A DNA stretch of 64,000 nucleotides from an uncultured Acidobacteriota bacterium (GCA_903845115.1 CAIMWE010000013.1:1-64000); one strand, 5' to 3'. Positions 15,471-30,816 are shown, numbered from the stretch's first letter. Numbers and translations: made by a program. Notes: generated from the letters alone by a model not told the origin.

Positions 15471-16979
15471 CTACCGGCCCCGGGAGGCGCGGACCGCCGC
15501 GGAGAGCGCCTCGGCCTGATCCCACCGCCCCAGCTCCTCCGCGTGGCGGACCAGCTCGCCGGCCGACTCCCGGTAGTTCGGGTCGAGCGCGAGGGCCCGG
15601 GCGAGGTGGCGGGAGGCCTCGGCGTTCTTTCCCTCGCCGAGCGAGAGGAGCGCGAGGTTCCAGTGCGCCTTCGAGTTGGCCGGGAGGTCCCGGACGATCG
15701 CCTCCATCAGCGTCCGGTCGTCCTGCCAGTCGGGAAGGTGCTCGACGATCCGCGCCCCGCCCAGAAGGGCGAGGAGGACCCCCGCCAGGGCGGCGGAAAG
15801 CCTCGCCGCGGGCCGTCCCCTTCCCGCCCCGCGAAGAGCCTCCCCCGCCGCGGCGGCCGCGACGGCGATGCCGGCGGCGGGAAGAAAGAGGAGGCGCTCG
15901 GTGAACACAATGCCGGTTGGGAAGAGGAAGTTGGCGAACGGGACGTACGAAACGAGGGCCCAGACCAGGCCGAAGCCGGCCAGCGGCGCCCGCTTCCGGA
16001 CCGCCGGAACGAGGAGCAGAACGGCCGCGAGGGAGGCGGCCGAAACCAGGACCGCGGCGCCCCAGGCCACCGAGGAGGCGGAGAGGAGGTCGTCGACCAG
16101 GAAGGTCGTCCGCGAGTAGTCGGGGGAGAGCGTCGTCGGCCAGAACAGCCGGGCGACGGCGAGCGGGAACAGAGAGAGGGCTCCCATGAGGCGGTGAATC
16201 GGAGAGAGGGCCGCCAGCAGGTTGTCGGCCGGACTGATGCGGGACGCCGAGCCCGTCAGGAGCCCGCCCAGGACCGCCCACCGGGCGGCGAACGCCAGGG
16301 CGAAAGCCCCCCCCCACGCACAGGCCAGCCGACGGAGTTGCCGGGCCCTGGCCGGCCGGTCTTCCGGGGGCGGCTCGTCCGGGCCCCCTCCCACCCTGCC
16401 TTCGAAGAGGACGACGAGAGCCAGGAGGCCCGGGGCGACGAACGAGTTCTCCTTCGAGAGCAGCGCGAGAAGGAGCAGGGAGGCCGAGAGGACCGCCCGC
16501 CGCCTCAGGAGAAGCGCCCCGACGAGGAAGAGGAACGCGAGGACCTCGCCCCGCGCGGCGATCGAGAGGACCGGTTCCGACCGGACCGGGTGGCACGAGA
16601 GGAGGACGACCGACCACCAGCCCGCGAACGGGCTCGCTCCGAGCGAGCGGACGAGGAGGCCGAACAGGCCCGCACCCACGCCCGCGAGCAGGAGGTTCGC
16701 CGAGCGGAGAGGTCCCGGCTGCAGCCCGAACAGCCGGACGTCGAGGCCGAGCGAGAGGACCGTCACGGGCCGGTAGTTGACTCCCCGGGCGCCCTCGCCG
16801 TAAGCCCACGGCTGAGCGAGCGCCGACGAGAGGGATCTCTGCCCGGTCACCTCCGGGCAATCGAGGACGAACTTGCGGTCGTCCATCGAGAAGAGGAACG
16901 GGAGGGACGCGCCGTACAGGAGGAAGTGGAGGGCGACGCCCGCCACGACCATCCCGAGCCGCCCCGGAAAGCTCCTCAC
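15471..16979 (-). CDS. TMTC-like membrane glycosyltransferase with C-terminal TPR
   Basis: A 502-residue protein with about ten membrane helices followed by TPR-like sequence (SKAHWNLALLSLGEGKNAEA ... LALDPNYRES). NYRPVTVLSLGLD, LSKENSFVAPG, LSPDYS and PFANFLFPTGIVFTERLLF are marks of the TMTC/DUF1736 group of GT-C type transferases, which in animals mannosylate cadherins. An exported protein is the likely acceptor; the sugar is unknown. GTG at 16979 overlaps the PAP2 stop (GTGA), so the two are coupled. It is the last gene of the block behind the 19.6-kb sigma-54 promoter. Confidence 0.75.
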   Translation of the reverse strand: MRSFPGRLGMVVAGVALHFLLYGASLPFLFSMDDRKFVLDCPEVTGQRSLSSALAQPWAYGEGARGVNYRPVTVLSLGLDVRLFGLQPGPLRSANLLLAGVGAGLFGLLVRSLGASPFAGWWSVVLLSCHPVRSEPVLSIAARGEVLAFLFLVGALLLRRRAVLSASLLLLALLSKENSFVAPGLLALVVLFEGRVGGGPDEPPPEDRPARARQLRRLACAWGGAFALAFAARWAVLGGLLTGSASRISPADNLLAALSPIHRLMGALSLFPLAVARLFWPTTLSPDYSRTTFLVDDLLSASSVAWGAAVLVSAASLAAVLLLVPAVRKRAPLAGFGLVWALVSYVPFANFLFPTGIVFTERLLFLPAAGIAVAAAAAGEALRGAGRGRPAARLSAALAGVLLALLGGARIVEHLPDWQDDRTLMEAIVRDLPANSKAHWNLALLSLGEGKNAEASRHLARALALDPNYRESAGELVRHAEELGRWDQAEALSAAVRASRGR

Positions 16980-18046
16980 GATCTCGAGCCGCCGTCCGGG
17001 AAGACGCGTCGGCCGAAAGAGCAGGCCGCGAGGCCGAGTAGGATCCCCGCCCAACCGTCCACCAGGTAGTGATAGCCGGTCACCACGGAGCCGATCAGCA
17101 TGACGAGGACCACGACCACGTTTCCGACGAACCAGGGGCGCGAGGTCCAGCGGCTCGCCGCCGCGAAGACGGTCACGACGGCGAGGTGGAGGCTCGGGAA
17201 CGCCGCGACGGACCCGAACCTGACGACCCGGGGAGCGAGAGGATTTCGCACGAGCGACGAGAGCTCCTCGAACAGGACGCTCTGGACACCGACCGTCGCC
17301 GGCATGTGGCGGAGGACGTCCGCGAAGGCCTCTGACACGACGAAGACCGGCCCCCACGACGGGACGGCCAGGTAGACGATGCTCCCGGCGATCCACATCG
17401 ACGTGTAGGCCGCGAGGAAAGCCATCCTCCTCGGGAGCGTCGGGACCACCAGGAGGAGTGGGACCGACAGGACGATCAGGAAGAAATAGAGGCTCGAGTA
17501 GAACAGGTCGAGGAACTGCAGGAATCGGTGGTTGGTGAAGAGCTCCGTCGCCAGGACGCTCGGGCTGAGGCCGAAGAGGGCCGTCTGGTCGATGGTCCAG
17601 AGGGCGGCGTCCCAGGTCCGCGGGTTGATCAGGTGAATGAAGCTCTTCAGGAGGAAGTGGACGGACAGGACCGGGACCAGGGTCGCCGCCGCCCGCAGGA
17701 GGACGACAAGGTCCGTTCCCACGGTCGAAGGGGGCCGTCTCGAGGGCGCGAGGGATCGGCCCCTCCACCAGGACGCGGCGCGCCGCGCCGCCACGGCGAC
17801 CAGTCCGGCTGCGGCGATCACGGTGGCCGGCAACCGGCTCGCCAGCAACAGGGCCTTTCGCGGGTAGGTGACCGGAAGAAGTTCGAGGACAAGGCAGCCC
17901 GCTGCCACGTAGAGGAGCGCGGCCACCTCGTGCGGGAAGGGACGGAGGCTCCGCACCCGCACTTCGAGAGGCGGGCGCTCCGGCACGACTGGCCCCCGCA
18001 CGCCGGGCGAGATCACCGGCTCCTCGGAGTCGTGTCCCGAGCTCAC
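16976..18046 (-). CDS. PAP2-superfamily membrane phosphatase
   Basis: A 356-residue membrane protein with several helices and the PAP2 signatures FPSLHLAVV and, later, GYHYLVDGWAG, containing the catalytic His residues. The first motif (usually KxxxxxxRP) is weak, as in the inositol-phosphoryl-ceramide-synthase/DUF212-like branch. It probably removes or transfers phosphate on polyprenyl or lipid phosphates, which would suit recycling of the carrier used by the TMTC-like enzyme downstream. The start is uncertain: I use GTG at 18046, 40 bases after the FecR stop; other in-frame GTGs follow closely. Confidence 0.75.
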   Translation of the reverse strand: MSSGHDSEEPVISPGVRGPVVPERPPLEVRVRSLRPFPHEVAALLYVAAGCLVLELLPVTYPRKALLLASRLPATVIAAAGLVAVAARRAASWWRGRSLAPSRRPPSTVGTDLVVLLRAAATLVPVLSVHFLLKSFIHLINPRTWDAALWTIDQTALFGLSPSVLATELFTNHRFLQFLDLFYSSLYFFLIVLSVPLLLVVPTLPRRMAFLAAYTSMWIAGSIVYLAVPSWGPVFVVSEAFADVLRHMPATVGVQSVLFEELSSLVRNPLAPRVVRFGSVAAFPSLHLAVVTVFAAASRWTSRPWFVGNVVVVLVMLIGSVVTGYHYLVDGWAGILLGLAACSFGRRVFPDGGSRS

Positions 18047-18086: not shown

Positions 18087-18839
18087 CTACGGACCCTTTC
18101 CGCCCCGCGGCTGACCGGCAGGGGGGGCGCCGCCGGGTGCGCCCATGCCGCCCATCCCTCCCGGACCAGCAGGGCTTCCCCCCTGGCCCTGCCCCGGGCT
18201 CCCCGGACGCTGCTGTCCGCCCGGCTGCTGCCCTTGCCCCATGCCTCCGGAGCGGCTTCCCCAGTTGCCCTCGTTGATTCCCATCGGTCCCATGGGAGCC
18301 GACCGGGGAGCGACGCCGGGCCCGAACGCGCAGTATTCCCCCTTGAGGACCCTGAGGGGGGCGATCCCAGGCGAGCTGGAGACGACTTCCACGATCCCCT
18401 CGAAGACGGCGAGCGAGGTCCGCCCCGACTCGTCGACCTGGACGCCGTACCTCGTCCCACGGACCGCGAGGAGAGCCCCGGGCGTCGCGACGCGACGCTC
18501 CACCGGCTCGGCTCCCGTCAGCACGTCGAAAAAGGCCTTCACCTTCCCCTTCTCGAGGACGAGGAGGACGCCGGGGTCGTCGCTCGCCAGCTTCACCCGG
18601 GTCCCGGAGGAGATCTCGAATCGCGACGCCCGCTCCGGCACCGAGATCACCGCGCGCCCCAGCCATCCCGTCCGGACCTGGTCGCCGGAGGCCGCTGCCT
18701 CGCCGGCTGCCACCCTCTGCTCCTGCTTCTCGTCCGAGGCCGGCGAGCGGTAGACGGCGCCCTTCACCTCGTCGAACCGGTACGTGAACGGCGCCGCGGC
18801 CGAAGCGAGAACCAGCAAGAGAACGGTCGGTCCGATCAC
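18087..18839 (-). CDS. FecR-domain exported protein with Gly/Pro/Gln/Met-rich tail
   Basis: A 250-residue protein with an N-terminal signal or anchor (MIGPTVLLLVLASAAAPF). Residues 25-165 are FecR-like: a GDQVRTGWLGRAVIS segment, EISSGTRVKL, VATPGALLAVRGTRYGVQV and VFEGIVEV are hallmarks. From about 180 on it is low-complexity (GGMGQGQQPGGQQ ... GGMGGMGAPGG). FecR domains bind sugars or sense signals in the periplasm. It lies between the Gly/Met-rich secreted protein and the PAP2 gene in the same direction. GTG at 18839 has AAAGGGGGG 3 bases upstream. Confidence 0.75.
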   Translation of the reverse strand: MIGPTVLLLVLASAAAPFTYRFDEVKGAVYRSPASDEKQEQRVAAGEAAASGDQVRTGWLGRAVISVPERASRFEISSGTRVKLASDDPGVLLVLEKGKVKAFFDVLTGAEPVERRVATPGALLAVRGTRYGVQVDESGRTSLAVFEGIVEVVSSSPGIAPLRVLKGEYCAFGPGVAPRSAPMGPMGINEGNWGSRSGGMGQGQQPGGQQRPGSPGQGQGGSPAGPGGMGGMGAPGGAPPAGQPRGGKGP

Positions 18840-18957
18840 GGGCCCCCCTTTCCGGATCCATGAACGTTACCCCACTCTCCGACGAGGAAGGGCCCGGAGG
18901 GGCGCGAACGCCTCACCGGGCCGACAGGCTCACCCCTCGGAGCCGTATCGAGAGGGC

Positions 18958-19533
18958 CTAGTCGAGCGAGAGGGTCCAGAGGATGCTGCCGCTCAGGCTG
19001 AGCGAAACGAGCGAGCGGGACCCCATCTGCGCGCCGCCCGTGGAGGTGGAGGACTTCGACACGACGGCGAGGAGACCGGTGGGCGTCACGGTCAGGCCTC
19101 CGACCGATCCGTCGAAGGACGTGCTCCAGACCTGGGCCCCGGCGAGGCTCAGCCCCACGACGGACGAGGTGCTGGAGGTAGACGACTCCGGAGCGACGGC
19201 CACCGCGACGAGGCCGGCGGGCGTGGCGATCTGGCGGATCTCGGACGGGGGGGTCCAGGTCCAGGCGACCGATCCCGAGGTGCCGACCGCGACGAGCTGG
19301 ACACTGACGGTGGTCGTCGAGCCGGACGTGGTCACGGTCCTCTTCTGGTAGAGCGCCTTGCCGTCGCTCGCGACCGAGATCGGACAGGCGTCAGGGCCAC
19401 CCGGCCCCATCCCGCCGCCGGGGCCGCCGGCTCCCGGACCGTTCCCCATTCCGCTCCCGCCTCCCATGGCGAACGCGGACGTGGCGAGGACGAGCGTGGA
19501 AAGCGCGATGGCGAAGAAACGTGCAGTTTTCAT
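18958..19533 (-). CDS. small secreted Gly/Met-rich protein, sigma-54 controlled
   Basis: A 191-residue protein of unknown function. Residues 1-22 are a clear signal peptide (FFAIALSTLVLATSAFA). A low-complexity segment rich in Gly, Met and Pro follows (MGGGSGMGNGPGAGGPGGG), then one Cys (DACPIS), then Ser/Thr-rich beta-strand sequence with VAWTWTPPSEIRQIATP and VWSTSFDGSVGGLTVTP, resembling single blades of a PQQ/WD-like propeller. ATG at 19533 has GGAGG 10 bases upstream. It is the first gene behind a -24/-12 promoter, directly after the regulator gene, so it is the probable main target of the two-component pair. Confidence 0.7.
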   Translation of the reverse strand: MKTARFFAIALSTLVLATSAFAMGGGSGMGNGPGAGGPGGGMGPGGPDACPISVASDGKALYQKRTVTTSGSTTTVSVQLVAVGTSGSVAWTWTPPSEIRQIATPAGLVAVAVAPESSTSSTSSVVGLSLAGAQVWSTSFDGSVGGLTVTPTGLLAVVSKSSTSTGGAQMGSRSLVSLSLSGSILWTLSLD

Positions 19534-19590
19534 CGAGTCGATTCCTCCGGCTCGAGCCGTCTCTGGGACCGCCCGGCCGACAGGGTCATC

Positions 19591-19605
19591 TCAATTTCCG
19601 TGCCA
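19591..19605 (-). promoter_or_regulatory. sigma-54 type -24/-12 promoter behind the NtrC-type regulator gene
   Basis: Minus strand TGGCACGGAAATTGA: a perfect TGGCAC, 5 bases, TTG, with A for the -12 C. The predicted start near 19579 gives a leader of about 46 bases to the ATG at 19533. Confidence 0.65.
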
Positions 19606-19633
19606 GCCAGAAAGCCCGTTCCGAGGCCCGTTT

Positions 19634-19650
19634 CGGGTCAGGGTGACCCG
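19634..19650. promoter_or_regulatory. 17-bp palindrome upstream of the sigma-54 promoter
   Basis: CGGGTCA-GGG-TGACCCG, perfect 7-bp arms with a 3-bp centre, 28 bp above the -24 element. This is a likely binding site for the adjacent NtrC-type activator. Confidence 0.5.
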
Positions 19651-19733
19651 CCCGACCGCAACTGGAACGGGACAGCGCGGGGCGAAACGACCCACCTCTC
19701 GCCTCGGTGCGGACCGCGACGGGCCGCGAGGTT

Positions 19734-21116
19734 CTACTCGGCGTCGCCTCCGTCGGAAAATGGACCGGCGGCCGGCTCGCGCAGCTTCCGCGCCAGTGTC
19801 TTGCGCTCGATGCCGAGCAGACGGGCCGCTTCGCTCTTGTTACCCCCCGTGAAATCGAGGACCGAGAGGACGTAGACCCGCTCGGCCTCCTCCAGCGTCA
19901 GCGGGCTGCTCGGCCGGAACGCGGGGAAGAGCGGCGCAGCCGGTCCGGTGGCGGGCGGCGCGTCGGTCCCGGGCGAGCCGAGGAGGGCGCCGGCCGCCGC
20001 CGGGTCCGACAGCGATCCGGCGTCGATCAAGACCCGGCGGACGACGTGGCCGAGCTCGCGGACGTTTCCGGGCCACGGGTGACGCGCGAGCCGGGCGAGG
20101 AACTCCTCGCTCGCGGGAGCGGAGCGGGTCAGCCCCAGCTCCGGGGCGAGCCGCGAGCGGAAGTGCTCGACGAGGCGCGGGAGATCAGAGAGACGCTCGC
20201 GGAGGGGCGGGATCCGGATCTCGTAGCCCGCCAGCCGGAAGTAGAGATCCTGGCGGAAGCGCCCCTCCTCGACCATCCGCGGCAGGTCGCGATGGGTCGC
20301 GCCGACCACCCGCACGTCGGCGGGCTCGCCCCGCTCGGCTCCGACCGGCGTCACGAGGCCGTCCTCGAGGAAGCGGAGGAGCTTCACCTGGAAAGCGGCC
20401 GAGACCTCCCCCGTCTCGTCGAGGAACGCGGTGCCGCCGTCGGCGAGGGAGAGGGCGCCTCTCCGGTCCCGCGAGGCGTCGGTGAAGGCGCCCCGCCGGT
20501 GGCCGAACAGCTCGCTCTCGAGAAGGGTGTCGGGGATCGCCCCGCAGTGAACCGGGACGAGCTCCCCCGTCCGGCCGCTGAAGCGGTGGAGCGCCCGGGC
20601 CACCAGCTCCTTCCCCGTCCCGGTCTCCCCCAGGACGAGGACCGGGACGCGGAGCGGCGCGACGCGGGCCACCGCCTTGTAGACCTCGACGATCGCCGGG
20701 TGCGAGCCGACGATGAGGCTGGCCGGGCCGACGTCCTCCGGCTCCTCCGGCGAGGGCGCGGCCGCGACCGCCGCGCGGACGCGCTCGACCAGGCGGGCGA
20801 CGTCGAAGGGCTTCGCGAGGTAGTCGAACGCGCCGACGCGGGCCGCCTCGGCTGCCGTCTCGACGGAGCCCCGGGCCGTCATCAGGATCACCGGCACCGG
20901 CTCCGGGAGGCGCCGGGTCTCGGCGAGGACCGCGAGTCCGTCCTCTCCCGGCATGTAGATGTCGCACAGGACGAGGTCGGGCCGGCCGCGCGAGAGGGCC
21001 TGGCGCGCCTCGGCCGCGCTCGCCGCGCGGATCACGGTGTAGCCGCTCTTCTCGAGCGCGAGGGCCGCCATCTCTCGAATGGCGGTGTCGTCGTCGACGA
21101 CGAGGACCGTCTTCAT
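19734..21116 (-). CDS. NtrC-family sigma-54-dependent response regulator
   Basis: A 460-residue regulator with three domains. The receiver (1-120) has the acceptor Asp52 in VLCDIYMP and Lys102 in AKPF. The AAA+ domain has Walker A GETGTGKE (163-170), Walker B FLDE (231-234) and the sigma-54 contact loop GAFTDA (209-214; the commonest form is GAFTGA). A Fis-type helix-turn-helix closes it (NKSEAARLLGIERKTLARKL). On phosphorylation such proteins bind enhancers and remodel sigma-54 polymerase. ATG at 21116 overlaps the kinase stop (ATGA), so the two form a cognate pair. The -24/-12 element at 19.6 kb follows directly. Confidence 0.93.
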   Translation of the reverse strand: MKTVLVVDDDTAIREMAALALEKSGYTVIRAASAAEARQALSRGRPDLVLCDIYMPGEDGLAVLAETRRLPEPVPVILMTARGSVETAAEAARVGAFDYLAKPFDVARLVERVRAAVAAAPSPEEPEDVGPASLIVGSHPAIVEVYKAVARVAPLRVPVLVLGETGTGKELVARALHRFSGRTGELVPVHCGAIPDTLLESELFGHRRGAFTDASRDRRGALSLADGGTAFLDETGEVSAAFQVKLLRFLEDGLVTPVGAERGEPADVRVVGATHRDLPRMVEEGRFRQDLYFRLAGYEIRIPPLRERLSDLPRLVEHFRSRLAPELGLTRSAPASEEFLARLARHPWPGNVRELGHVVRRVLIDAGSLSDPAAAGALLGSPGTDAPPATGPAAPLFPAFRPSSPLTLEEAERVYVLSVLDFTGGNKSEAARLLGIERKTLARKLREPAAGPFSDGGDAE

Positions 21117-22912
21117 GCACGCCCTCCAGGGGCCAGCGGGATGATCACCCGGAAGAGGCTTCCGCCGGTAGGAGGCGCTTCCAGCTCCACGCGCCCCCGG
21201 TGCCAGCCCGCCACCTCCGACACGAAGGCGAGGCCGAGCCCGAGTCCCGGCGCGGCTGCGGCCGCCGAGCCGCGGGCGAACCGGCGAAAGACGGCGGTGC
21301 GCTCTTCGCGAGGGATTCCCGGCCCGCGGTCCCGCACTTCGAGCGCCGCCCCCTCGGAAGTGGTCCTCAGGACGAGGTCGACCGGCTCCGAGGGAGGGGA
21401 GAACTTGAACGCGTTCCCGACCAGGTTGTCCACGAGGCGGGAGAGGAGGGCCGGATCCCCCCGGACGGCGAGCCCGCCCTCGATCGACGGGACGAGGCGG
21501 CCTCCTCCGCCCAGGACGCCCGCGCGCGCGATCGCCAGAGCCGACAGGTCGACCCGGACGGCGTGGGCCGCGAACTCCTTCAGCTTCAGGCGCTCGAGGT
21601 CGAGGAGCCCCTCCACCATCTCGGAGAGGCGGTTCGCCTCGCTCTCGACCAGGCCGGCCACGCGCCGCCGCTCCCTTTCCGTCAGGTCGTAGCCCGCCAG
21701 CAGCTGCGCCAGCCCCTTCACCGACGTCAGCGGCGTCCTCAGCTCGTGGGCCACGACGCGCCGCGCCTCGGAGGCGTCCCGGCGATCCGCCTCGAGCGAC
21801 GCGGCCAGGTCCGACAGCTCGCCGACGCGCTTCCTGGCGGACGCCGTCTCGCGCTGGAACCGGCCTGCCGCCAGCGCCTCCCAGGCCGTGGCCAGGACGA
21901 CCACGGGCAGCACCGCCGCCGTGGCGGCCAGCTCGAACCCGGCCCCCGCGGCGACCCATTCGAACGCGAACGGAGTTAGCGCCGCGAGGGCCATGAGGGG
22001 GACCCGGGCTCCCCCGCTCACCGTTCCGGCGGCAGCGACCAGGACCGCGGCCACCACTGCCAGCGCCCCCGCGACCACCGGCGGAAGGGGGGAGAGGAGG
22101 TCGCCGGCGAGGATCGACTCCGCGGCCTCCGCCTGCGCGACCACCCCCGGCTCCGACCCGCCTCGCTCCGTGAGCGGCGTGACGACGCGGTCCCCGAGTC
22201 CCGCGGCGCTGGCTCCGACGAAGACGACCTTCCCTTCCAGGACGCGACCGGCTTCCGGCTGGCGGAGAAGCCGGGCCGCCGGGACGACCGGCACCGTGCC
22301 GACGGCGCGGAACCCGGGGCGGAGGAAGGTCCCGACGGGAATCGGTCTTTCGGGCTCTAGAAGTCTGGCCGCCGCGAGCGAGAGGGCCGGGAGCGAGAGG
22401 GGCTGAAGCGAAGGGCCCGCCGCCTCCCGCGTCGCGGCGAGGCGCCGCACCACCCCGTCCCGGTCCAGATCGAAGGCCACGTGCGCGAGGACGGCGGCTC
22501 GCCCCAGGGACGGCGACGGGAGGAGCCAGCGTCCCCGGTCCGAGATCCCCGCGCCCAGGGCGGACGGGATGCTGGCGAGCGCCGCCGCGAGAAGGGGGTC
22601 CCCCTCCCGCGCTTCCGGGAGGAGCAGGTCGATCACGACGCCGCGGGCGCCCGCCTTTCCGGCCGCGTCGAGCAGGGCGGCGAGCTTCGCTCGCTCCCAG
22701 GGCCAGGCCCCTTCGGCCCGGAGCGATGGCTCGTCGACCAGGACGACGGCCACGCGGGAGGCAGGCACCCGAGGCTGCCGCCGGAGGATCGCGTCGTGGA
22801 CCGGCAGCTCGACGGGACGGAGGAGCCCCGAGACGGCCAGCAGAGCCGCACACACTCCCGCGGCGGCCGTCCCGACCGCGGGATGGAGTGTCCGTTCTCT
22901 CGTCACCGGCAC
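21113..22912 (-). CDS. CHASE2-domain sensor histidine kinase
   Basis: A 599-residue kinase. A membrane helix (about 13-33) precedes a large extracytoplasmic CHASE2 domain (VAVVLVDEPSLRAEGAWPW, GARGVVIDLLLPE, GKVVFVGASAAGLGDRVVTPL), followed by three closely spaced helices (about 275-350), a coiled linker, the H-box VVAHELRTPLTSVKG and an ATPase domain (LVDNLVGNAFKFS, RDRGPGIPREE, GLGLGLAFVSEVA). CHASE2 senses an unknown extracellular signal. GTG at 22912 is the start; no strong Shine-Dalgarno. It is coupled by ATGA to the NtrC-type regulator. Confidence 0.88.
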   Translation of the reverse strand: MPVTRERTLHPAVGTAAAGVCAALLAVSGLLRPVELPVHDAILRRQPRVPASRVAVVLVDEPSLRAEGAWPWERAKLAALLDAAGKAGARGVVIDLLLPEAREGDPLLAAALASIPSALGAGISDRGRWLLPSPSLGRAAVLAHVAFDLDRDGVVRRLAATREAAGPSLQPLSLPALSLAAARLLEPERPIPVGTFLRPGFRAVGTVPVVPAARLLRQPEAGRVLEGKVVFVGASAAGLGDRVVTPLTERGGSEPGVVAQAEAAESILAGDLLSPLPPVVAGALAVVAAVLVAAAGTVSGGARVPLMALAALTPFAFEWVAAGAGFELAATAAVLPVVVLATAWEALAAGRFQRETASARKRVGELSDLAASLEADRRDASEARRVVAHELRTPLTSVKGLAQLLAGYDLTERERRRVAGLVESEANRLSEMVEGLLDLERLKLKEFAAHAVRVDLSALAIARAGVLGGGGRLVPSIEGGLAVRGDPALLSRLVDNLVGNAFKFSPPSEPVDLVLRTTSEGAALEVRDRGPGIPREERTAVFRRFARGSAAAAAPGLGLGLAFVSEVAGWHRGRVELEAPPTGGSLFRVIIPLAPGGRA

Positions 22913-23068
22913 CGCACGGATTCCATCATTTCACGCCCGGGGACCCCCACCGTTCCCCCGATCGCCTCGGCATTCCGTGGTCTCCGGCGCTGAGGGCGGG
23001 CCAGCAGACCTCGACCGGCGGCATCCTGTGCCTCGTCGTCGAGCTGGACTGACCCGCTGCCCGCCTGC

Positions 23069-23995
23069 CTACTGCCCGCCGGACACCAGGTTCATGCCGG
23101 TGCCCATGCCGCCCCCCATCCCACGGCCGCCGTTCATCATGCTGCCCATGACGACGTAGCCGTCGTTGGTGACGTTGTCGTTCACGACGGCGTAGGACAT
23201 CACCATGCCGCCGGTGCCCTGGTTCATCCGCACGCGGATCTGGAGGCCTGCGTCGCCGACCGGGAGCTTCGAATGGACGTTCGCCAGGACGTCGTTGAAC
23301 TGGTGCGACGAGTAGCCCGCCAGCGTGAACGGGAGACTCTTCGCGCCGGTGCCCGCCGGCGTCGTCCCGTCCGCGTCGACGATCTCGACGACTCCCGCCG
23401 CTCCCGTCGACGCCGTGGCGACGACGTTCACGTTGACGCGGTTTCCGGGCTCCGGCAGGAGGCCGAGCATGTACATGGCGTACTCGTTCGTGCCGTAGGA
23501 GCCGCCCGACGGCATCGAGGTCATCCCCCTCCGGCTCGGCATCCCCATGAAGGCGAGACCATAGGCCCCCGCGCCGGACTGGTTGTAGACCCTGACGGTC
23601 GCCGAGACCGGGAAGCTCGCCGCGACGCGGATCGCCCCGAACGCCGTCTGGAGGCCGAACTTCTCGTGGAGGACGTCCGGAAGGTACGTGATCGGCTGCG
23701 TGAGGCTGATGGTCGCCGTGGCGGTGGGCGCCGACGTCGCCGAGTCCGTGGCGTGGAAGTAGAGCGTGGCCGTTCCGGTCCCGCCCGCCTTGATCCAGAG
23801 GTCGGTGACGAAGAACGAGCTGAACTGGCCGGCTCCGCGGACGCCCGCCGGGATGATCAGGTCCTCGGAACCGTTCGTCATCCCGTCGCCGGGACCGCCC
23901 GTCCCGCCCCCCCCGCCCATCTGGGCAAGGGCCGGGAGCGTCGCGAGGGAGCCGGCGAGGGCGACCGCACCGAGGAACGACTTGAGACAACGCAT
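23069..23995 (-). CDS. secreted protein with one acidobacterial-type beta module, Gly/Met-rich ends
   Basis: A 308-residue protein. Signal peptide 1-25 (FLGAVALAGSLATLPALAQ), then a Gly-rich stretch (MGGGGGTGGPGDGM), then a module starting DLIIPAGVRGAGQFSSFFVTD and containing YLPDVLHEKFG...GAIRVAASFPVSATVRVYNQ and YSSHQFNDVL. The order of motifs matches the two C-terminal modules of the protease at 44722-47319 (WILPSSARAAGQGGAFYTTD, DVLGNLFG, GAIRISS, LNILGQ). It ends in GGRGMGGGMGTGMN. ATG at 23995 has AAGGAG 6 bases upstream. No function is known; it probably is a surface or matrix protein. It lies upstream of, and in line with, the CHASE2 pair. Confidence 0.7.
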   Translation of the reverse strand: MRCLKSFLGAVALAGSLATLPALAQMGGGGGTGGPGDGMTNGSEDLIIPAGVRGAGQFSSFFVTDLWIKAGGTGTATLYFHATDSATSAPTATATISLTQPITYLPDVLHEKFGLQTAFGAIRVAASFPVSATVRVYNQSGAGAYGLAFMGMPSRRGMTSMPSGGSYGTNEYAMYMLGLLPEPGNRVNVNVVATASTGAAGVVEIVDADGTTPAGTGAKSLPFTLAGYSSHQFNDVLANVHSKLPVGDAGLQIRVRMNQGTGGMVMSYAVVNDNVTNDGYVVMGSMMNGGRGMGGGMGTGMNLVSGGQ

Positions 23996-24036
23996 GAAGG
24001 TCTCCTTCTTCTCGGACCGCTGGCGGCCGAGGGCCC

Positions 24037-24078
24037 GCCGATAATTACATAAATGGCTATATAATCATATAGTTAATT
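24037..24078. promoter_or_regulatory. AT-rich promoter/operator region with a palindrome
   Basis: A sharply AT-rich island in otherwise GC-rich DNA, about 40-80 bases upstream of the secreted-protein start at 23995. It holds CTATAT-AATC-ATATAG (24057-24072), a perfect 6-bp inverted repeat. It is probably a promoter with an operator or an upstream activating tract; the exact -10/-35 cannot be fixed. Confidence 0.45.
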
Positions 24079-24110
24079 GAGACGCCATATCGACGCACTC
24101 CGGGACTGAC

Positions 24111-24227: not shown

Positions 24228-24644
24228 TCAGCCCTTCTTCTCGAGGAACATGCCGCACTTCGGGCACTTCCCCGGCCCCGGCTGCTGGACTTCCGGGTGC
24301 ATCGGGCACGTGTAGAGCACGGCGGCGGCCGCCTCGATCTGGACCTTCACGGCTTCCGTGCCCGTCTTTCCCTTCGCCGTCTCGACGATCACCCCCACCC
24401 CCGGCTTCACGTCGGAGGCCGTCGCGGAGGCCTTTCCCTTCGTGAAGACGGTGGCGGCGGTCACCAGGACCTCCTGCGCCTTGCCGTTCGCCGGCTTCAC
24501 CTCGATCCGGCCCTTGTCGGCGCGGGTGACGGTGCCCGCGATCAGCCCGGCGCCCTCGCCTGCGGATGCGGCCGCCGGCGCGAGGGCGAGGACGAGAGCG
24601 AAGGCGACGGTCTGGAGAATCGTGGCCGGGAGGAGTCGTTTCAT
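24228..24644 (-). CDS. periplasmic heavy-metal-binding-domain protein
   Basis: A 138-residue exported protein: signal peptide 1-28 ([16 protein letters not shown]), a beta-rich domain ([20 protein letters not shown]) and a C-terminal metal-binding motif [20 protein letters not shown] followed by GM (about 111-133). The same CPMHPE...CPxCGM motif occurs twice in CusB upstream and is known from copper and silver systems. It is the last gene of the cus-type operon, 114 bases after cusA; ATG at 24644 has AAGGAAG upstream. It is likely a periplasmic Cu/Ag carrier or sponge. Confidence 0.75.
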
Positions 24645-24758
24645 CGGGTGCTTCCTTCTTTCTTTGCGTTGCCGGCATCGGGACGCCGGGCTGTTTCGTG
24701 GATGGCCCTCTTCGGACGGGCCTCTTGTTTCCGCTCGTGATTCCTTTTCGGATGCTCG

Positions 24759-27700
24759 TCAAGCCATTCCGGGAGCGAGGGCGGGGCCCGCCGCTGCCGG
24801 CCCTTCCGGCACCGGCTTCGGCAGACTCCGCTCCTTCCAGAGCATGTAGATGGCTGGGTAGACCAGGAGCTCCAGCGCGAACGACGTGACGAGGCCGCCG
24901 ACCATCGGGGCCGCGATCCGCTTCATCACGTCGGCCCCGGAGCCGGTCGACCACATGATCGGAAGCAGGCCCATGAACGCCGCGCAGACCGTCATCGCCT
25001 TCGGCCGCACGCGCTTCACGGCACCGTGGATGATCGCCTCGACGAGCTCCGCTCGATTCCTCAGCCGTCCCTCCCGCTTCGCCTCGTCGTACGAGAGGTC
25101 GAGGAAGAGGAGCATGAAGACGCCGGTCTCCGCGTCCAGCCCCATCAGCGCGATGACGCCGACCCAGACGGCGATCGACAGGTTGTAGCCCAGGAACCAG
25201 AGCAGCCAGACCGCCCCGATGATCGAGAACGGGACGGCGAGGAGGACGATCATCGTCTTCATCGCCGACTTCGTGTTCGCGTACATCAGCAGGAAGATCA
25301 GGACGAGCGTGACGGGGACGACGACGCGGAGCCGCTCCCTCACCCGCAGCATGTTCTCGTACTGCCCGCTCCAGACGATCGTGGTCCCGGCCGGGAGCTT
25401 CACCCGTTCGGCGACCACGCGCTTGGCCTCCTGGACGTAGCCTCCGATGTCCTCCTTCAGCGTGTCGAAGTCGACGTAGACGTAGCCGGAGAGGAGGCCG
25501 TTCTCGTTCCGGATCATGGATGGCCCCTGCACCTTCCGGATGGTGGCGAGCTGCCCGAGCGGCACCTGCGCCCCCGACATCGTCCGGACGAGGACCCGGT
25601 CGAGCAGCGTGATGTCTTCGCGCAGCTCCCGCGGGTACCGGACGTTGACCGAGTAGCGCTCGCGCCCCTTGATCACGGTCGTCACCGGCTCGCCGCCGAC
25701 CGCCGACATGATCATGGCGTTCGCGTCGTCGACCGTCAGGCCGTACCGGGCGAGCTGGTCGCGGTTCAGCTCGAAGTCGACGAAGTAGCCGCCGGCCACC
25801 CGCTCGGCGAATGCGGAACGGGTGGCCGGGATGGTCCGGACCGCGGCCTCGATCTCGGCGCCGACCCGCTCGATCTCCTTCAGGTCGGAGCCGAAGACCT
25901 TGATCCCGATCGGGGTCCGGATGCCGGTCGAGAGCATGTCGATCCGGGCCTTGATCGGCATCGTCCAGGCGTTCGTCGTACCGGGCAGCTTCAGGGCCGC
26001 GTCCATCTCGTCGACCAGCTCCTCCCAGGCGATCCGGTCCCGCCAGAAGGGCCGGAGGCCGGCCGCGAGCCACTTCGGCGCCCACGCCGAGTACCACCGC
26101 GGGCGGGGCCGCCACTCGCTCTCCGGCTTCAGGATCACCGTGGTCTCCATCATCGAGAAGGGGGCCGGGTCGGTGGAGCTCTCGGCACGCCCCGCCTTGC
26201 CGAAGACCCGGTCGACCTCGGGGAACGACTTCAGGATCCGGTCCTGCACCTGCAGCAGGCGCTCGGCCTCCGTCACCGAGAGGCCGGGAAGGGTCGTGGG
26301 CATGTAGAGGATCGACCCCTCGTGGAGGGGCGGCATGAACTCGGACCCGAGCTTCAGGAAGACCGGGACCGTGGTGGCGAGGACGAGGAGGGCGATGCCG
26401 ATGGTCGACTTCGGGTGCCGGAGCACCATCCGGCAGGGGGGCTCGTAGATCCGGTGGAGGAAGGAGCTGACCGGGTGCTTTTCCTCCGGGTAGTACTTCC
26501 CCACCGTCACGCCGTTGACGAGCCAGGCCAGGGCCTTCGGCCGGAACTTGAACGGGTCCATCCGCGCGAACGACATCCGGAGGGCCGGGTCGAGCGTGAT
26601 GGCCAGGAGCGCCGCGATCGCCATCGCCAGGTTCTTGGAGTACGCCAGCGGCTTGAAGAGGCGCCCCTCCTGGTCGACGAGGGTGAAGACCGGCAGGAAC
26701 GCCACGGCGATGACGAGGAGGGAGAAGAAGACCGACGGACCCACCTCCATCAGCGCCTTCAGGCGCACCTCGTGGAAGTCGCCCGGACGCCCGGCGGCGT
26801 CCCAGAGCTGGAGCTTCTTGTAGGCGTTCTCCACTTCCACGATCGCCCCGTCCACCAGGACGCCGATCGAGATCGCGATGCCGCCCAGCGACATGATGTT
26901 GACGGAGAGCCCCATCGCCTGGAACGGGATGAAGGCGAGGATCACCGAGATCGGGATCGTCAGGATCGGGACGATCGCGCTCGGGACGTGCCAGAGGAAG
27001 AGGAGGATGACGAGCGAGACGACGACGATCTCCTCGATCAGCTTGTCCTTCAGGGTGGAGACCGCCTCCTCGATCAGGATCGACCGGTCGTACGTCGTGA
27101 CGACCTTGACCCCGGGGGGGAGCGACGGCTCGATCTCCTTCAGCTTCGCCTTCACCCGCTCGATGACGTTGAGGGCGTTCTCGCCGCTCCGCATCACGAC
27201 GATCCCGCCGACGACGTCGCCCTGGCCGTCCAGGTCCGCGATGCCGCGGCGGATCTCCGGGCCGAGGCCCACCTTTCCGATGTCGCCGACCGTGACCGGG
27301 GTCCCCTTCTCGTTCGTCTTGACGACGATCTTCCCGATGTCGGCCTCGTCCTTCAGGTAGCCGCGGCCGCGGATCATGTACTCGCGGCCCGAGAACTCGA
27401 TCAGCCGCCCCCCCACCTCGTTGTTGCTCTTCCGGATCGAGGCGCTGACCTCCTCCAGCGAGAGCCCGTAGGCCGAGAGCGTGTTCGGGTCGACCGTCAC
27501 CTGGTACTGCTTCTGGAAGCCCCCCACCGTGGCCACCTCCGCCACGCCGGGGACCGACTGGACGGCGTACCTCACGAACCAGTCCTGCGACGACCGGATG
27601 TCCTGGATGGAGCTCTTGCCGCTCCCGTCGACGAGCGCGTACTGGAAGACCCAGCCGACGCTCGTGGCGTCCGGCCCCAGCTCGGTCGTCACCCCCTGCG

Positions 27701-28112
27701 GCAGCTTCCCCTGGATCTTGGAGAGGTACTCGAGGACCCGCGAGCGGGCCCAGTAGAGGTCGGTCCCGTCCTCGAAGATGACGTAGACGTACGAGAAGCC
27801 GAAGTCGGAGAAGCCCCGGATCGTCTTGACCTTGGGGGCCCCGAGGAGCGAGGCGACGATCGGGTAGGTGACCTGGTCCTCCAGGATGTCGGGGCTCCGG
27901 TCCCAGCGCGAGAAGATGATCACCTGCGTGTCGGACAGGTCCGGGATGGCGTCGAGGGGCATCCGCTTCGTCACGCCGATCGCCAGCGCGACAGCGATCG
28001 CGGTGAGGGCCAGCACCAGGACCCGGTTCTCCGCGGAGAAGCGGATGACCCGCTGGATCACCCGCTCGCGCGGCTCGCCGCCGCCCGTTCCGCCTCCGCT
28101 TCCGCCGCTCAC
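24759..28112 (-). CDS. cusA: CusA-type heavy-metal efflux RND pump
   Basis: A 1117-residue inner-membrane proton-driven pump of the HME-RND family. It shows PLDAIPDLSDTQVIIFSRW near the N-terminus, VLVDGAIVEVENA in helix 4, the paired porter domains, and LMGLDAETGVFMLLFLDL late, typical of CusA/SilA/CzcA. A periplasmic Met-containing region (SMMETTVILKPESEW) is present. It exports Cu(I)/Ag(I) or other divalent metals with CusB and CusC; the metal cannot be read from sequence alone, but the CPMHPE domains in CusB favour copper. GTG at 28112 overlaps the cusB stop (GTGA). Confidence 0.93.
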   Translation of the reverse strand: MSGGSGGGTGGGEPRERVIQRVIRFSAENRVLVLALTAIAVALAIGVTKRMPLDAIPDLSDTQVIIFSRWDRSPDILEDQVTYPIVASLLGAPKVKTIRGFSDFGFSYVYVIFEDGTDLYWARSRVLEYLSKIQGKLPQGVTTELGPDATSVGWVFQYALVDGSGKSSIQDIRSSQDWFVRYAVQSVPGVAEVATVGGFQKQYQVTVDPNTLSAYGLSLEEVSASIRKSNNEVGGRLIEFSGREYMIRGRGYLKDEADIGKIVVKTNEKGTPVTVGDIGKVGLGPEIRRGIADLDGQGDVVGGIVVMRSGENALNVIERVKAKLKEIEPSLPPGVKVVTTYDRSILIEEAVSTLKDKLIEEIVVVSLVILLFLWHVPSAIVPILTIPISVILAFIPFQAMGLSVNIMSLGGIAISIGVLVDGAIVEVENAYKKLQLWDAAGRPGDFHEVRLKALMEVGPSVFFSLLVIAVAFLPVFTLVDQEGRLFKPLAYSKNLAMAIAALLAITLDPALRMSFARMDPFKFRPKALAWLVNGVTVGKYYPEEKHPVSSFLHRIYEPPCRMVLRHPKSTIGIALLVLATTVPVFLKLGSEFMPPLHEGSILYMPTTLPGLSVTEAERLLQVQDRILKSFPEVDRVFGKAGRAESSTDPAPFSMMETTVILKPESEWRPRPRWYSAWAPKWLAAGLRPFWRDRIAWEELVDEMDAALKLPGTTNAWTMPIKARIDMLSTGIRTPIGIKVFGSDLKEIERVGAEIEAAVRTIPATRSAFAERVAGGYFVDFELNRDQLARYGLTVDDANAMIMSAVGGEPVTTVIKGRERYSVNVRYPRELREDITLLDRVLVRTMSGAQVPLGQLATIRKVQGPSMIRNENGLLSGYVYVDFDTLKEDIGGYVQEAKRVVAERVKLPAGTTIVWSGQYENMLRVRERLRVVVPVTLVLIFLLMYANTKSAMKTMIVLLAVPFSIIGAVWLLWFLGYNLSIAVWVGVIALMGLDAETGVFMLLFLDLSYDEAKREGRLRNRAELVEAIIHGAVKRVRPKAMTVCAAFMGLLPIMWSTGSGADVMKRIAAPMVGGLVTSFALELLVYPAIYMLWKERSLPKPVPEGPAAAGPALAPGMA

Positions 28113-29512
28113 TTCGTCTCCTTCGCGGGCTCCTTCGCCCCCTCGCCCGCCGTCATCCCGGCGAGCGCCGCCTTCAGCTGCGACTCGGAGTCGACCAGGA
28201 AGTTGGCGCCGAGGGCCACGACGTCGCCTTCGGCCAGCCCCTTGCGGATCTCCGTCACGCCGCCGGCCCGCTCGCCCACTTCCACTTCCCTCGGGACGAG
28301 CTTCCCGCGGCCCGGCGCGAGAAAGACGATCTTCCTCGTCCCGCTGTCGAGGACCGCGTCGTCGGGGACGGCCAGTGCCTCCCGGGCGCTGCCCCGGATG
28401 ACCACCTGGGCGAACATCTCTGGCTTCAGGTCGCCGTTCGGGTTGGCCACGTCGATCCGGACCTTCACCGTCCGGCTCTTCTCGTCGACCGCCGGGTAGA
28501 TGTAGGTGACCGGCCCGGCCCACTCCTTCCCTGGCCAGTAGGCGAGCGTGACCGTCGCTTTCTGTCCGAGCTTCAGCCGCGGCAGCTCGTACTCGTAGAC
28601 GTCCGCCACCACCCAGACCGACGAGACGTCCACGATGTCGAAGAGGGTGTCGGCCGGCGTCACCTTCATCCCGTGGAAGGCGGTCCTCCCGGTGACGTAC
28701 CCGGAGATCGGGGCATAGAGGGGGATCGTCCGGAGCGGCTCGCCGTTCCTCACGATCGCCGCGATGTCCTCGGGCGCGATCTGCCAGAGGAGGAGGCGCT
28801 GGCGGGCCGCCTCGAGGAGCTCTTTCCCGCTCGCCGCGACCCCTTCCATCGCCGACCCGGAGAGGGAGCGCATCGCCTTCAGGGCGAGGAGGTACTCCTG
28901 CTGCGTGGCGAAGACCTCGGGGCTGTAGACGTGGGCGAGGACCTCCCCCTTCCGGACGTACTTTCCGGTGAAGTCGGCCGTCACGTGCTCGACGAAGGCC
29001 TCGTACCGGGTATGGACGTGGTGGACCCGCCGCTCGTCGAAGAGGACCCTTCCTACGGTCCGGATGGAGGTCGCGAGCGGCGCCATCTTCGCGGAGGCGG
29101 TCTTGAGCCCGAGGAGGCGCTCCTTCTCGGGATCGATCGTGATCGTGGTGCGGTTGGCCGGCCCCGCCGCCGCGTCCGGCTTCGCCGCCTCGACCTGGAC
29201 CAGGTTCATCCCGCAGATCGGACAGCTGCCCTTCGCGTCCCTCACGATCTCCGGGTGCATCGGGCAGGTCCACTTGTGGACCGCCGGGGCGCTTGTCGCC
29301 GGCTCGGCCGGGACCAGCTTCATCCCGCAGATCGGGCAGTCGCCCGGGACGTCCTTGACGATCTCCGGGTGCATCGGGCAGATCCACTTCTGCGCCGCGT
29401 GGTCGGCGTGGCCCGGACCGCCCTTGTTGCAGCCGGCGAGGAGGACCGTCCCGGCGAGGCCCGCCAGCGCGAGGAGGAGAACGAGAGAGAAGGAGATCGT
29501 CTTCTTCGTCAT
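28109..29512 (-). CDS. cusB: CusB-type membrane fusion protein with two heavy-metal-binding domains
   Basis: A 467-residue lipoprotein: lipobox VLLAGC (Cys28). Two metal-binding repeats follow, CPMHPEIVKDVPGDCPICGM (45-64) and CPMHPEIVRDAKGSCPICGM (83-102). Then comes the adaptor proper (IRTVGRVLFDERRVHHVHTR, GKYVRKGEVLAHVYSPE, APISGYV, NPNGDLKPEMFAQV). It links CusA to CusC in the periplasm and passes metal to the pump. ATG at 29512 follows the cusC stop by 8 bases; its own stop overlaps the cusA start. Two repeats in one adaptor is more than the single copy usual in the family. Confidence 0.93.
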   Translation of the reverse strand: MTKKTISFSLVLLLALAGLAGTVLLAGCNKGGPGHADHAAQKWICPMHPEIVKDVPGDCPICGMKLVPAEPATSAPAVHKWTCPMHPEIVRDAKGSCPICGMNLVQVEAAKPDAAAGPANRTTITIDPEKERLLGLKTASAKMAPLATSIRTVGRVLFDERRVHHVHTRYEAFVEHVTADFTGKYVRKGEVLAHVYSPEVFATQQEYLLALKAMRSLSGSAMEGVAASGKELLEAARQRLLLWQIAPEDIAAIVRNGEPLRTIPLYAPISGYVTGRTAFHGMKVTPADTLFDIVDVSSVWVVADVYEYELPRLKLGQKATVTLAYWPGKEWAGPVTYIYPAVDEKSRTVKVRIDVANPNGDLKPEMFAQVVIRGSAREALAVPDDAVLDSGTRKIVFLAPGRGKLVPREVEVGERAGGVTEIRKGLAEGDVVALGANFLVDSESQLKAALAGMTAGEGAKEPAKETK

Positions 29513-29520
29513 GTCGGGCC

Positions 29521-30816
29521 TCACATCTTCGAGCTGGACGGGGAGGGGGCCGCCGTGGCAGCCATCGAGGGGGACGCGGAGTCGAGCGAGAGTTCGTGGA
29601 GGTCGGCGTCGGTCTTCAGGTAGTCGGCGACCCGGGAGACGGCGGCGCGCCGGTCGGCGAAGAGGGTGCCGAGCGCCTCGAGGACCGAGATGAACGGGAC
29701 GCTCCCCGTCGTGTAGCTGGCGAGCGCGGCGTCCACGGCGAGCCGGTCCTGCACGAGGATCCCCTCCATGTCGATCCGCGCCTCCCTCGCGAGCTGCTTC
29801 AGCCGGACGAGGCGCTCCCTGGTCTTCCCCGTCAGCCGGACCTTCAGCGCCTCCTCGGCCGCCTTCGCCGCCCGCTCGCGCCCCTCGGCGTCGAGCTGGA
29901 GAGGCTTCTGCTTCGAGCCGGTCCAGACGGGGAGGGTCACGCCGACCCCGGCCGACCAGGTCATCGGCAGCTGCCCGCGGTTGCCGTATCCAACCTGCAC
30001 GACGAAGTCGGGGGAGAAGGCCTTCTTCGCCAGCGCCACCTCCATCGCCGCGCGCTCCCTCGCGAGCCTGGCCTCCTGGAGCTCCGGGCTCTTCGCCTCG
30101 GCCTCCTCGAGCATCGCTTTCCCTTCCGGCTCCGTCAGGGCGGCCGACGTCCGGAGCGCGGCCGCCCTGGACGCGATCGCGGCGTCGACCGGCCGCAGGA
30201 GGATCCGCGAGAGCTCGACGCGCGCGGTCTCCTCCGCCGCCTCGTCCCTCACCCGCTGCTGCTCGAGGCGCGTCCGCTCGCTCTGCGCCCGGAGGAGGTC
30301 CTGCTGGCTCCCCATCCCGGCCGCGTACCGGGTCCTCGTGATCTCGGCGATCTCCTTCCACGTGGCGATCTGCTCGTCGGTGAGGACGAGGCTCTCTCGC
30401 GCGGCCAGGAGGGCTGCCCATCCCCGCCGGACCGCCCCCTCCACCTCCAGCCGGGCGCGGGCGACCTTCGTCGCCGACTCCGCCGCCTGGCCCTCCGCGA
30501 TCCGCCCGGAGAGCTTCTGCTTCCCGGGGAACGGGATGGACTGCTGGACCATGAACTGGAGCTGGGTCATCGGCTCGGTCCCGAGCGAGATCGCCGCCCC
30601 GTCGTTGTCGTAGCTCACCGTGAACATCGGGTCGGGGAGCGTCGAGGCCGGCCGGGCGCGCTGGGCGGCCGCCCCGGCCGCCTCGCGGGCGGCGAGGACG
30701 TCGGGGCTGTGCTCGAGCGCCTCGGCGACGAGGGCGGTCAGCTCGGGGTCGTCGTCGCCCCGTACGGGAAGCGGGAGGGCGATCGAGAGGAGGACGGCCA
30801 GGGAGAGGAATCGCAT
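29521..30816 (-). CDS. cusC: CusC/TolC-family outer-membrane efflux protein
   Basis: A 431-residue protein with a signal peptide (LSLAVLLSIALPLPVRG) and the coiled alpha-hairpin pattern of TolC-type channels (VAEALEHSPDVLAAREAAGAA, LTDEQIATWKEIAEITRTRY). Pro-rich beta segments (LPDPMFTVSYDNDG, TLPVWTGSKQKPLQL) fit the outer-membrane barrel. It is the exit duct for the CusAB pump. ATG at 30816 has GAGG 9 bases upstream. It is the first of the three pump genes. Confidence 0.88.
   Translation of the reverse strand: MRFLSLAVLLSIALPLPVRGDDDPELTALVAEALEHSPDVLAAREAAGAAAQRARPASTLPDPMFTVSYDNDGAAISLGTEPMTQLQFMVQQSIPFPGKQKLSGRIAEGQAAESATKVARARLEVEGAVRRGWAALLAARESLVLTDEQIATWKEIAEITRTRYAAGMGSQQDLLRAQSERTRLEQQRVRDEAAEETARVELSRILLRPVDAAIASRAAALRTSAALTEPEGKAMLEEAEAKSPELQEARLARERAAMEVALAKKAFSPDFVVQVGYGNRGQLPMTWSAGVGVTLPVWTGSKQKPLQLDAEGRERAAKAAEEALKVRLTGKTRERLVRLKQLAREARIDMEGILVQDRLAVDAALASYTTGSVPFISVLEALGTLFADRRAAVSRVADYLKTDADLHELSLDSASPSMAATAAPSPSSSKM

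Follow-up and report, generated by a model that had tools for sequence, protein, structure and literature searches.

The linkage of CHASE2 sensors to FecR-domain proteins, the existence of sigma54 two-component systems and the GAFTDA variant of the L1 motif of sigma54 activators are already known. In Burkholderia the BiofilmReg operon encodes a response regulator, a LysM-FecR protein, a CHASE2 kinase and a DUF4136 protein (PMC5192318), and in Campylobacterota a CHASE2 adenylate cyclase clusters with a FecR-domain outer membrane protein and a TPR protein (PMC9239204). What CHASE2 sensors recognise is not known according to the former study. The QseE-QseG-QseF system of Enterobacteriaceae illustrates how a protein of the envelope can gate the kinase that acts upstream of a sigma54 regulator (PMC6075780). 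The locus analysed here lies in a stretch of 64,000 nucleotides, referred to as the window, from an acidobacterial genome assembly (5.85 Mb, 305 contigs), and its core module consists of a CHASE2 histidine kinase, an NtrC-type regulator and an exported FecR-domain protein. As in BiofilmReg, the kinase is accompanied by an exported protein with a FecR domain, by a response regulator and by one additional exported protein, but the BiofilmReg regulator is of the OmpR/CreB type, its kinase carries PAS and its FecR protein LysM, whereas here Pfam detects an NtrC-type regulator and FecR only in the exported protein; moreover, the gene order is different and no sigma54 promoter was reported for BiofilmReg. 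The CHASE2-FecR link is shared with the Campylobacterota clusters, although their output is cAMP and not a two-component regulator. Another parallel is QseEGF, which also combines a kinase, an envelope accessory protein and an NtrC-type regulator, encoded in one operon, and drives sigma54 promoters in response to an envelope signal; its sensor, however, is not CHASE2, its accessory protein QseG is not FecR and its targets are glmY and rpoE. With FecR of FecIRA the FecR domain (PF04773) is held in common, the protein here being exported, and no ECF sigma factor or TonB receptor was found recurrently beside the module by similarity clustering of the neighbours. That CHASE2 and FecR recur with three different outputs argues, by inference, that FecR is the sensory partner of CHASE2. 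The combination described below, its cargo families and its enhancer-promoter unit were not found in the open-licence papers searched.

In the order of transcription, the minus strand of the window encodes CusC-CusB-CusA, an HMBD protein, a 308-aa protein, the CHASE2 kinase, the NtrC-type regulator, a 191-aa protein, FecR, PAP2_3 and a TPR protein, the copper pump being directly upstream of the block (Table 1). All five minus-strand genes claimed in an earlier note on this DNA are present at the coordinates given there, and Pfam bears out the kinase/NtrC-type regulator pair and the FecR domain: CHASE2 was detected in the kinase with an E-value of 1e-39 and FecR in the exported protein with 1.5e-8, while the regulator shows a receiver, an AAA+ sigma54-activation domain and a Fis-type HTH. 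The H-box of the kinase and the acidic receiver residues of the regulator are kept; the 3' end of the kinase gene overlaps the start of the regulator gene by 4 nt, and the kinase may alternatively start at 22855. The Gly/Met runs that had drawn attention to the locus were likewise seen in three proteins with apparent signal peptides, i.e. the 308-aa protein (GMGGGMG), the 191-aa protein (GGGSGMG, GGGMG) and FecR (GGMGGMG), and the promoter ascribed to the pair corresponds to a sigma54-like site. Regarding the two downstream neighbours, the proposed PAP2 phosphatase is PAP2_3, but the supposed TMTC-like glycosyltransferase shows only TPR repeats in Pfam. Rfam gave no match in the window.

Table 1. 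Features of the locus, listed in the order of transcription
Feature	Position	Strand	Basis or remark
Copper/heavy-metal efflux block	24228..30816	-	Linked neighbour, non-core
CusC	29521..30816	-	Named by sequence and position only
CusB	28109..29512	-	Named by sequence and position only
CusA	24759..28112	-	
HMBD protein	24228..24644	-	
308-aa exported protein, Gly/Met-rich ends	23069..23995	-	Assigned to the copper-pump block, outside the module
CHASE2 histidine kinase (CHASE2-HisKA-HATPase_c)	21113..22912	-	Pfam; H-box RVVAHELRTPL; orthologs ~41-58% in module loci
NtrC-type response regulator (receiver, sigma54-activating AAA+ with GAFTDA L1, Fis HTH)	19734..21116	-	Pfam, L1 motif, orthologs
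Second, farther-upstream enhancer-like dyad GGGTCGTTTCGCCCC, 29 bp from the first	19679..19693	-	
First enhancer-like dyad GGGTCACCCTGACCC, 29 bp upstream of the -24 element	19635..19649	-	
Sigma54-like promoter TGGCACGGAAATTGA (-24/-12; -12 letter A, not C)	19591..19605	-	57 nt ahead of the cargo start codon
Cargo gene, exported 191-aa protein: signal peptide, Gly/Met-rich linker (~24-50), predicted short PQQ/BamB-type propeller (51-191)	18958..19533	-	
Exported FecR-domain protein, YRFDEVK motif, Gly/Pro/Met-rich tail	18087..18839	-	Pfam, alignment
PAP2_3 phosphatase	16976..18046	-	Downstream neighbour, not conserved with the module
TPR-containing hydrophobic protein ("TMTC-like")	15471..16952	-	Pfam: TPR repeats only; not conserved with the module

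Genes were called in 19 fetched loci and in 49 named loci retrieved with a FecR alignment. The core recurs in about 40 further loci of Thermoanaerobaculia and Holophagae, cultured Geothrix being among the carriers (G. paludis SG195, G. fuzhouensis SG12 and G. limicola), and the succession of kinase, regulator and FecR on one strand is kept, with few exceptions, in the approximately 46 loci obtained by the FecR-profile search. At nine other sites in the 41 genomes searched, homologs of the cargo and of the kinase lie together, the former downstream of the latter. The order of the window is exceptional, since FecR follows the cargo gene here and precedes it in the other loci. The earlier note had named missing conservation of the gene order as an argument against the system; this argument falls away, as kinase, regulator and FecR recur together with an exported Gly-rich protein and a predicted sigma54/enhancer promoter. 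Neither PAP2 nor the TPR/membrane protein, on the contrary, was recurrent near the module when about 50 loci were clustered by similarity; both were ruled out as module members, and therefore the glycan part of the proposed surface system has been dropped, whereas the unit of pair, FecR and exported Gly-rich protein stands.

The 308-aa protein, which the earlier note had counted within the system, does not belong there either. Six of its nine close homologs (window included) lie within ~6 kb of a CusA gene (1-6 kb in G003, G004:C38, G005, G011, G016 and the window), in most cases in the absence of the kinase, and therefore the protein was assigned to the efflux block, which abuts the module here. 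It has no Pfam match, and its structure model was unusable (pLDDT 55). Ahead of its gene, at 24031-24100 on the minus strand, there is an AT-rich stretch with a dyad-like ACTATATGATTATATAG, and ACCATATGAGTATAGAG occupies a similar place in locus L121 (upstream of 14358, minus strand); these sites may serve as operator for a metal-responsive repressor. Several small contigs of one genome (G023:C12, C18, C24 and C76) contain short matches to the two ends of the protein, which may represent repeats or fragments of the assembly. In L125 (3664-4350, plus strand) a second propeller-type Gly/Met protein is encoded between CusA and the module, an arrangement that suggests gene exchange between the pump block and the module.

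The exported cargo differs between loci. A homolog of the 191-aa protein is the cargo after FecR in about 17-20 loci; in Holophagae the cargo is a 143-147-aa Met/Gly-rich protein, a DUF5666/DUF4382 lipoprotein or a DUF4382 lipoprotein, and elsewhere a 278-306-aa protein without Pfam match. Compared with 48 other exported proteins of the same loci, cargo proteins are enriched in Gly (Mann-Whitney p 3e-9) and in GM/MG dipeptides (p 6e-6), the enrichment in total Met being not significant (p 0.15). The Gly-rich linker is found in most members of the 191-aa family and Met runs in some, these being absent from many relatives; a conserved Met cluster was found only in the Holophagae 143-147-aa cargo, one example of which has 24% Met. 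Single-sequence Pfam PQQ_2 matches of the 191-aa protein fall below the cut-off, and a profile search of PDB sequences matched BamB, PQQ-repeat and designed propellers. In the AlphaFold model residues 51-191 are confident (~95 pLDDT in most blocks) and form ~11 strands, which in ~140 aa would make approximately three blades in this monomer model; Foldseek retrieved propeller proteins with E down to ~2e-4 and a modest TM of ~0.5, as would be expected for an incomplete ring. Judged by this model, the protein is a short PQQ/BamB-type propeller with a Gly/Met-rich linker, like the BamB/PQQ-repeat beta-propellers in repeat sequence and predicted fold, but reduced to ~140 aa of propeller type, provided with the linker and located outside any BamB or dehydrogenase context.

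Cargo genes have a common predicted promoter design, in which 28-32 bp separate a GGGTC-N5-GACCC dyad from a sigma54-like TGGCAC-N5-TTG downstream of it; a second dyad is frequently present farther up. In a joint scan, which required 8 or more of the 10 dyad letters, a distance of 26-34 bp and TGGCA-N6-TTG with no more than one mismatch, 17 matches were found in the 20 kb of ~47 cargo-upstream regions against 12 in 1.37 Mb of other strand-sequence, and 9 of these 12 also precede cargo-type genes. Many loci have no joint-scan match; in some of them the dyad has diverged, the contig is truncated or no cargo is recognised. The dyad was first noticed in the Thermoanaerobaculia and window loci, which are partly the set counted, and the Holophagae loci, outside the defining set, where it was recovered, are the out-of-sample part. 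Whole-genome search of the window's genome returned exactly one match, the promoter of the 191-aa cargo, and the strict pattern occurs 14 times in 12 of the 149 genomes of the class: eight matches have a module-like form, seven of them ahead of propeller cargo, and the remaining six lie in unrelated families, about as often as in the control. In Holophagae further copies of the promoter precede the same cargo families, some of them off the contig of the kinase locus (draft genomes). The dyad-promoter combination thus appears almost absent outside cargo genes.

The geometry of these sites is narrow. The distance from dyad to -24 element is 30 bp in 14 of 26 sites and 28-32 bp in all of them, and a second dyad (score of at least 8), whose frequency in shuffles is 3.6%, was found in 11 of the 26, located 27-29 bp farther up in nine and 38-39 bp in two, i.e. 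at two spacings about one helical turn apart. The -24 and TTG elements match the sigma54 consensus, from which the -12 letter departs in 23 sites (A 16, T 6, C 3, G 1). In comparison with NtrC-family systems, where the distance from enhancer to promoter is usually 100-150 bp (PMC7057263), the dyads here, known from sequence, are nearer to the promoter and at a fixed spacing. Two kinds of similar sites were rejected. The sigma54-like sites before FecR (TGGCACGGAAGCTGAA and similar) are not taken as promoters because they fall within the coding sequence of the regulator, where they specify the conserved LARKLK of the Fis helix, and the matches to GGGTCTTCAAGACCC across family f8 are one conserved, coding-looking sequence.

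On the basis of the conserved gene order, the domains, the common promoter/dyad arrangement and its near-restriction to cargo genes, it is likely that three proteins of the locus form an envelope signalling circuit, whose output gene encodes an exported protein. The state of the envelope would be read by the CHASE2 domain of the membrane-bound kinase, probably in concert with periplasmic FecR as a modulator, and the kinase would phosphorylate the NtrC-type regulator. We infer that the regulator binds one or two of the GGGTC-N5-GACCC dyads, at their fixed spacing upstream of the sigma54-type promoter (TGGCAC-N5-TTGA/T), and that the direction of control is positive, so that the bound regulator would activate the neighbouring cargo gene, which in the window encodes the secreted short PQQ-type propeller. 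Because FecR is downstream of the cargo in the window, it may be co-induced with it, which would constitute a feedback; the same order, with cargo before FecR, is atypical and counts against the circuit. The best guess for the signal would be metal or a related redox stress in the envelope.

The L1 motif of the window's regulator is GAFTDA and not GAFTGA, and the 40 core regulators of the named loci with a readable motif all have GAFTDA, GAYTDA, GAFTDS or GAYTDS, the outgroup regulators L145 and L151 having GAFTGA. This motif and the disappearance of the -12 C from most sites would suit a regulator with a degenerate L1 loop that acts as a repressor or on sigma70 promoters, in which case the -24/-12 match would be fortuitous; NtrC-family members without a normal GAFTGA are known, e.g. 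Caulobacter NtrC. We regard this as improbable, since GAFTDA is listed among the functional, activation-compatible motifs in Desulfovibrio (PMC4641369), the NorR G266D mutant, which has GAFTDA, escapes repression by its regulatory domain and still forms open complexes (PMC2941729), and the -24 and TTG elements stand at a near-constant spacing from the dyad in 26 of 26 sites. The rpoN gene is present, so that RpoN is encoded. A still weaker case is that of chance neighbours in a GC-rich genome with Gly/Met runs as compositional noise: 70% GC favours Gly and low-complexity runs are common, but the gene order is kept across two classes, the promoter arrangement is specific and GM/MG dipeptides exceed those of other exported proteins, so that this reading is already refuted by the conservation.

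What the circuit senses and what its cargo does are matters on which two further readings bear. In the first, a specific version of the preferred circuit, the module would sense periplasmic copper or a related metal and induce exported metal-binding or metal-protecting proteins working beside Cus-type efflux. Over the 175 Mb of the 41 genomes, 84 heavy-metal RND pumps score above the curated cut-off (TIGR00914), and a pump was found within ~6 kb of 5 of 16 modules (window, G004:C30, G010:C51, G023:C15 and G036:C6), against 0.17 expected within 10 kb (Poisson p ~1e-6); leaving the window out, 4 of 15 modules are linked (p ~2e-5, calculated by hand with the same formula). Further loci have Cus, HMBD/CusF-like, P-type ATPase, ArsR-like or multicopper-oxidase-like genes nearby, the Met content of the Holophagae cargo points in the same direction, and a copper-amended enrichment was dominated partly by a Geothrix relative (PMC10946571), which is circumstantial for a metal signal. 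Most modules, however, have no pump nearby, and Met runs are missing in many propeller relatives. As to the earlier suggestion that Met runs beside a copper pump could mean metal binding, the module is indeed linked to heavy-metal efflux, but the runs are not conserved in the 191-aa family; a metal role of the module is plausible, and the full metal-stress version remains rather doubtful. In the second reading the circuit would control surface adhesion as Burkholderia BiofilmReg does, with the Gly-rich proteins and lipoproteins as matrix or surface components. The pairing of CHASE2 kinase and FecR is the same, the Burkholderia regulator mutant lost biofilm (PMC5192318), and the cargo is exported or a lipoprotein and Gly-rich; nevertheless, the Burkholderia system has another type of regulator and the additional LysM and PAS domains, and no conserved polysaccharide or adhesin genes were found near the module, which makes this reading unlikely.

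Beyond the window, we tentatively propose, at somewhat less than an even chance, a clade-wide envelope-response platform of Acidobacteriota, in which one CHASE2-FecR-NtrC circuit would serve exchangeable, unrelated exported cargo genes tied together only by the fixed-geometry enhancer-promoter unit. As predicted, this unit would be unusual for sigma54 in that the dyad is centred ~60 bp before the predicted start site at near-constant spacing, the second dyad is helically phased, A replaces C at -12 and the activator is of the GAFTDA type. Several unannotated families of exported Acidobacteriota proteins are thereby tied to one predicted regulon, and the set of promoters is a natural test of the tolerance of sigma54 for a changed -12 and a close, fixed enhancer. 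Moreover, the predicted compact output promoter comes with the CHASE2 kinase and its FecR partner also in cultured Geothrix, and therefore the signal of CHASE2 could be searched for with one reporter.

Neither the L1 motif nor its relation to the -12 letter was retained as a finding in itself. GAFTDA is a known natural variant (PMC4641369) with a second case in the window's genome, where, among the other activators whose motif could be read, 16 carry G at this position and one, L203 (G000:C94), without a linked CHASE2 kinase, carries D. Covariation of GAFTDA/GAFTGA with the -12 letter was rejected for too few cases, two outgroup loci (L145 and L151, GAFTGA and TTGC) against a GAFTGA paralog with TTGG. 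The outgroup module of L151 (30-5279, plus strand; Thermoanaerobaculales), with its GAFTGA regulator and canonical TTGC promoter, could date the change of the -12 letter.

Related arrangements were seen elsewhere. The window's genome (G000:C25) and G013 have a paralogous module ahead of a Gly-rich 114-144-aa protein and a DUF2202 protein. In L058 (G000:C25:90000-109900, 6486-11077) and L062 this paralogous CHASE2 kinase-NtrC module is without FecR, the regulator motif is GSFTGA in the former and GAFTGA in the latter, and a sigma54-like TGGCACGACTCTTGA is located ahead of the Gly-rich 114-aa protein, followed by the DUF2202 protein. TGGCAC-N5-TTGA occurs 5 times in the window's genome (control 2) and TGGCAC-N5-TTGC 6 times (control 9). 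A sigma54-like site with A at -12, TGGCACGAGAATTGA, precedes a 79-aa Lys-rich exported peptide in L068 (G000:C24:5552-5566). Finally, L212 (G049:C365) has two divergent dyad-promoter units, at 6038 on the minus and 7480 on the plus strand, with no known cargo family downstream, which are possibly further targets of the circuit.
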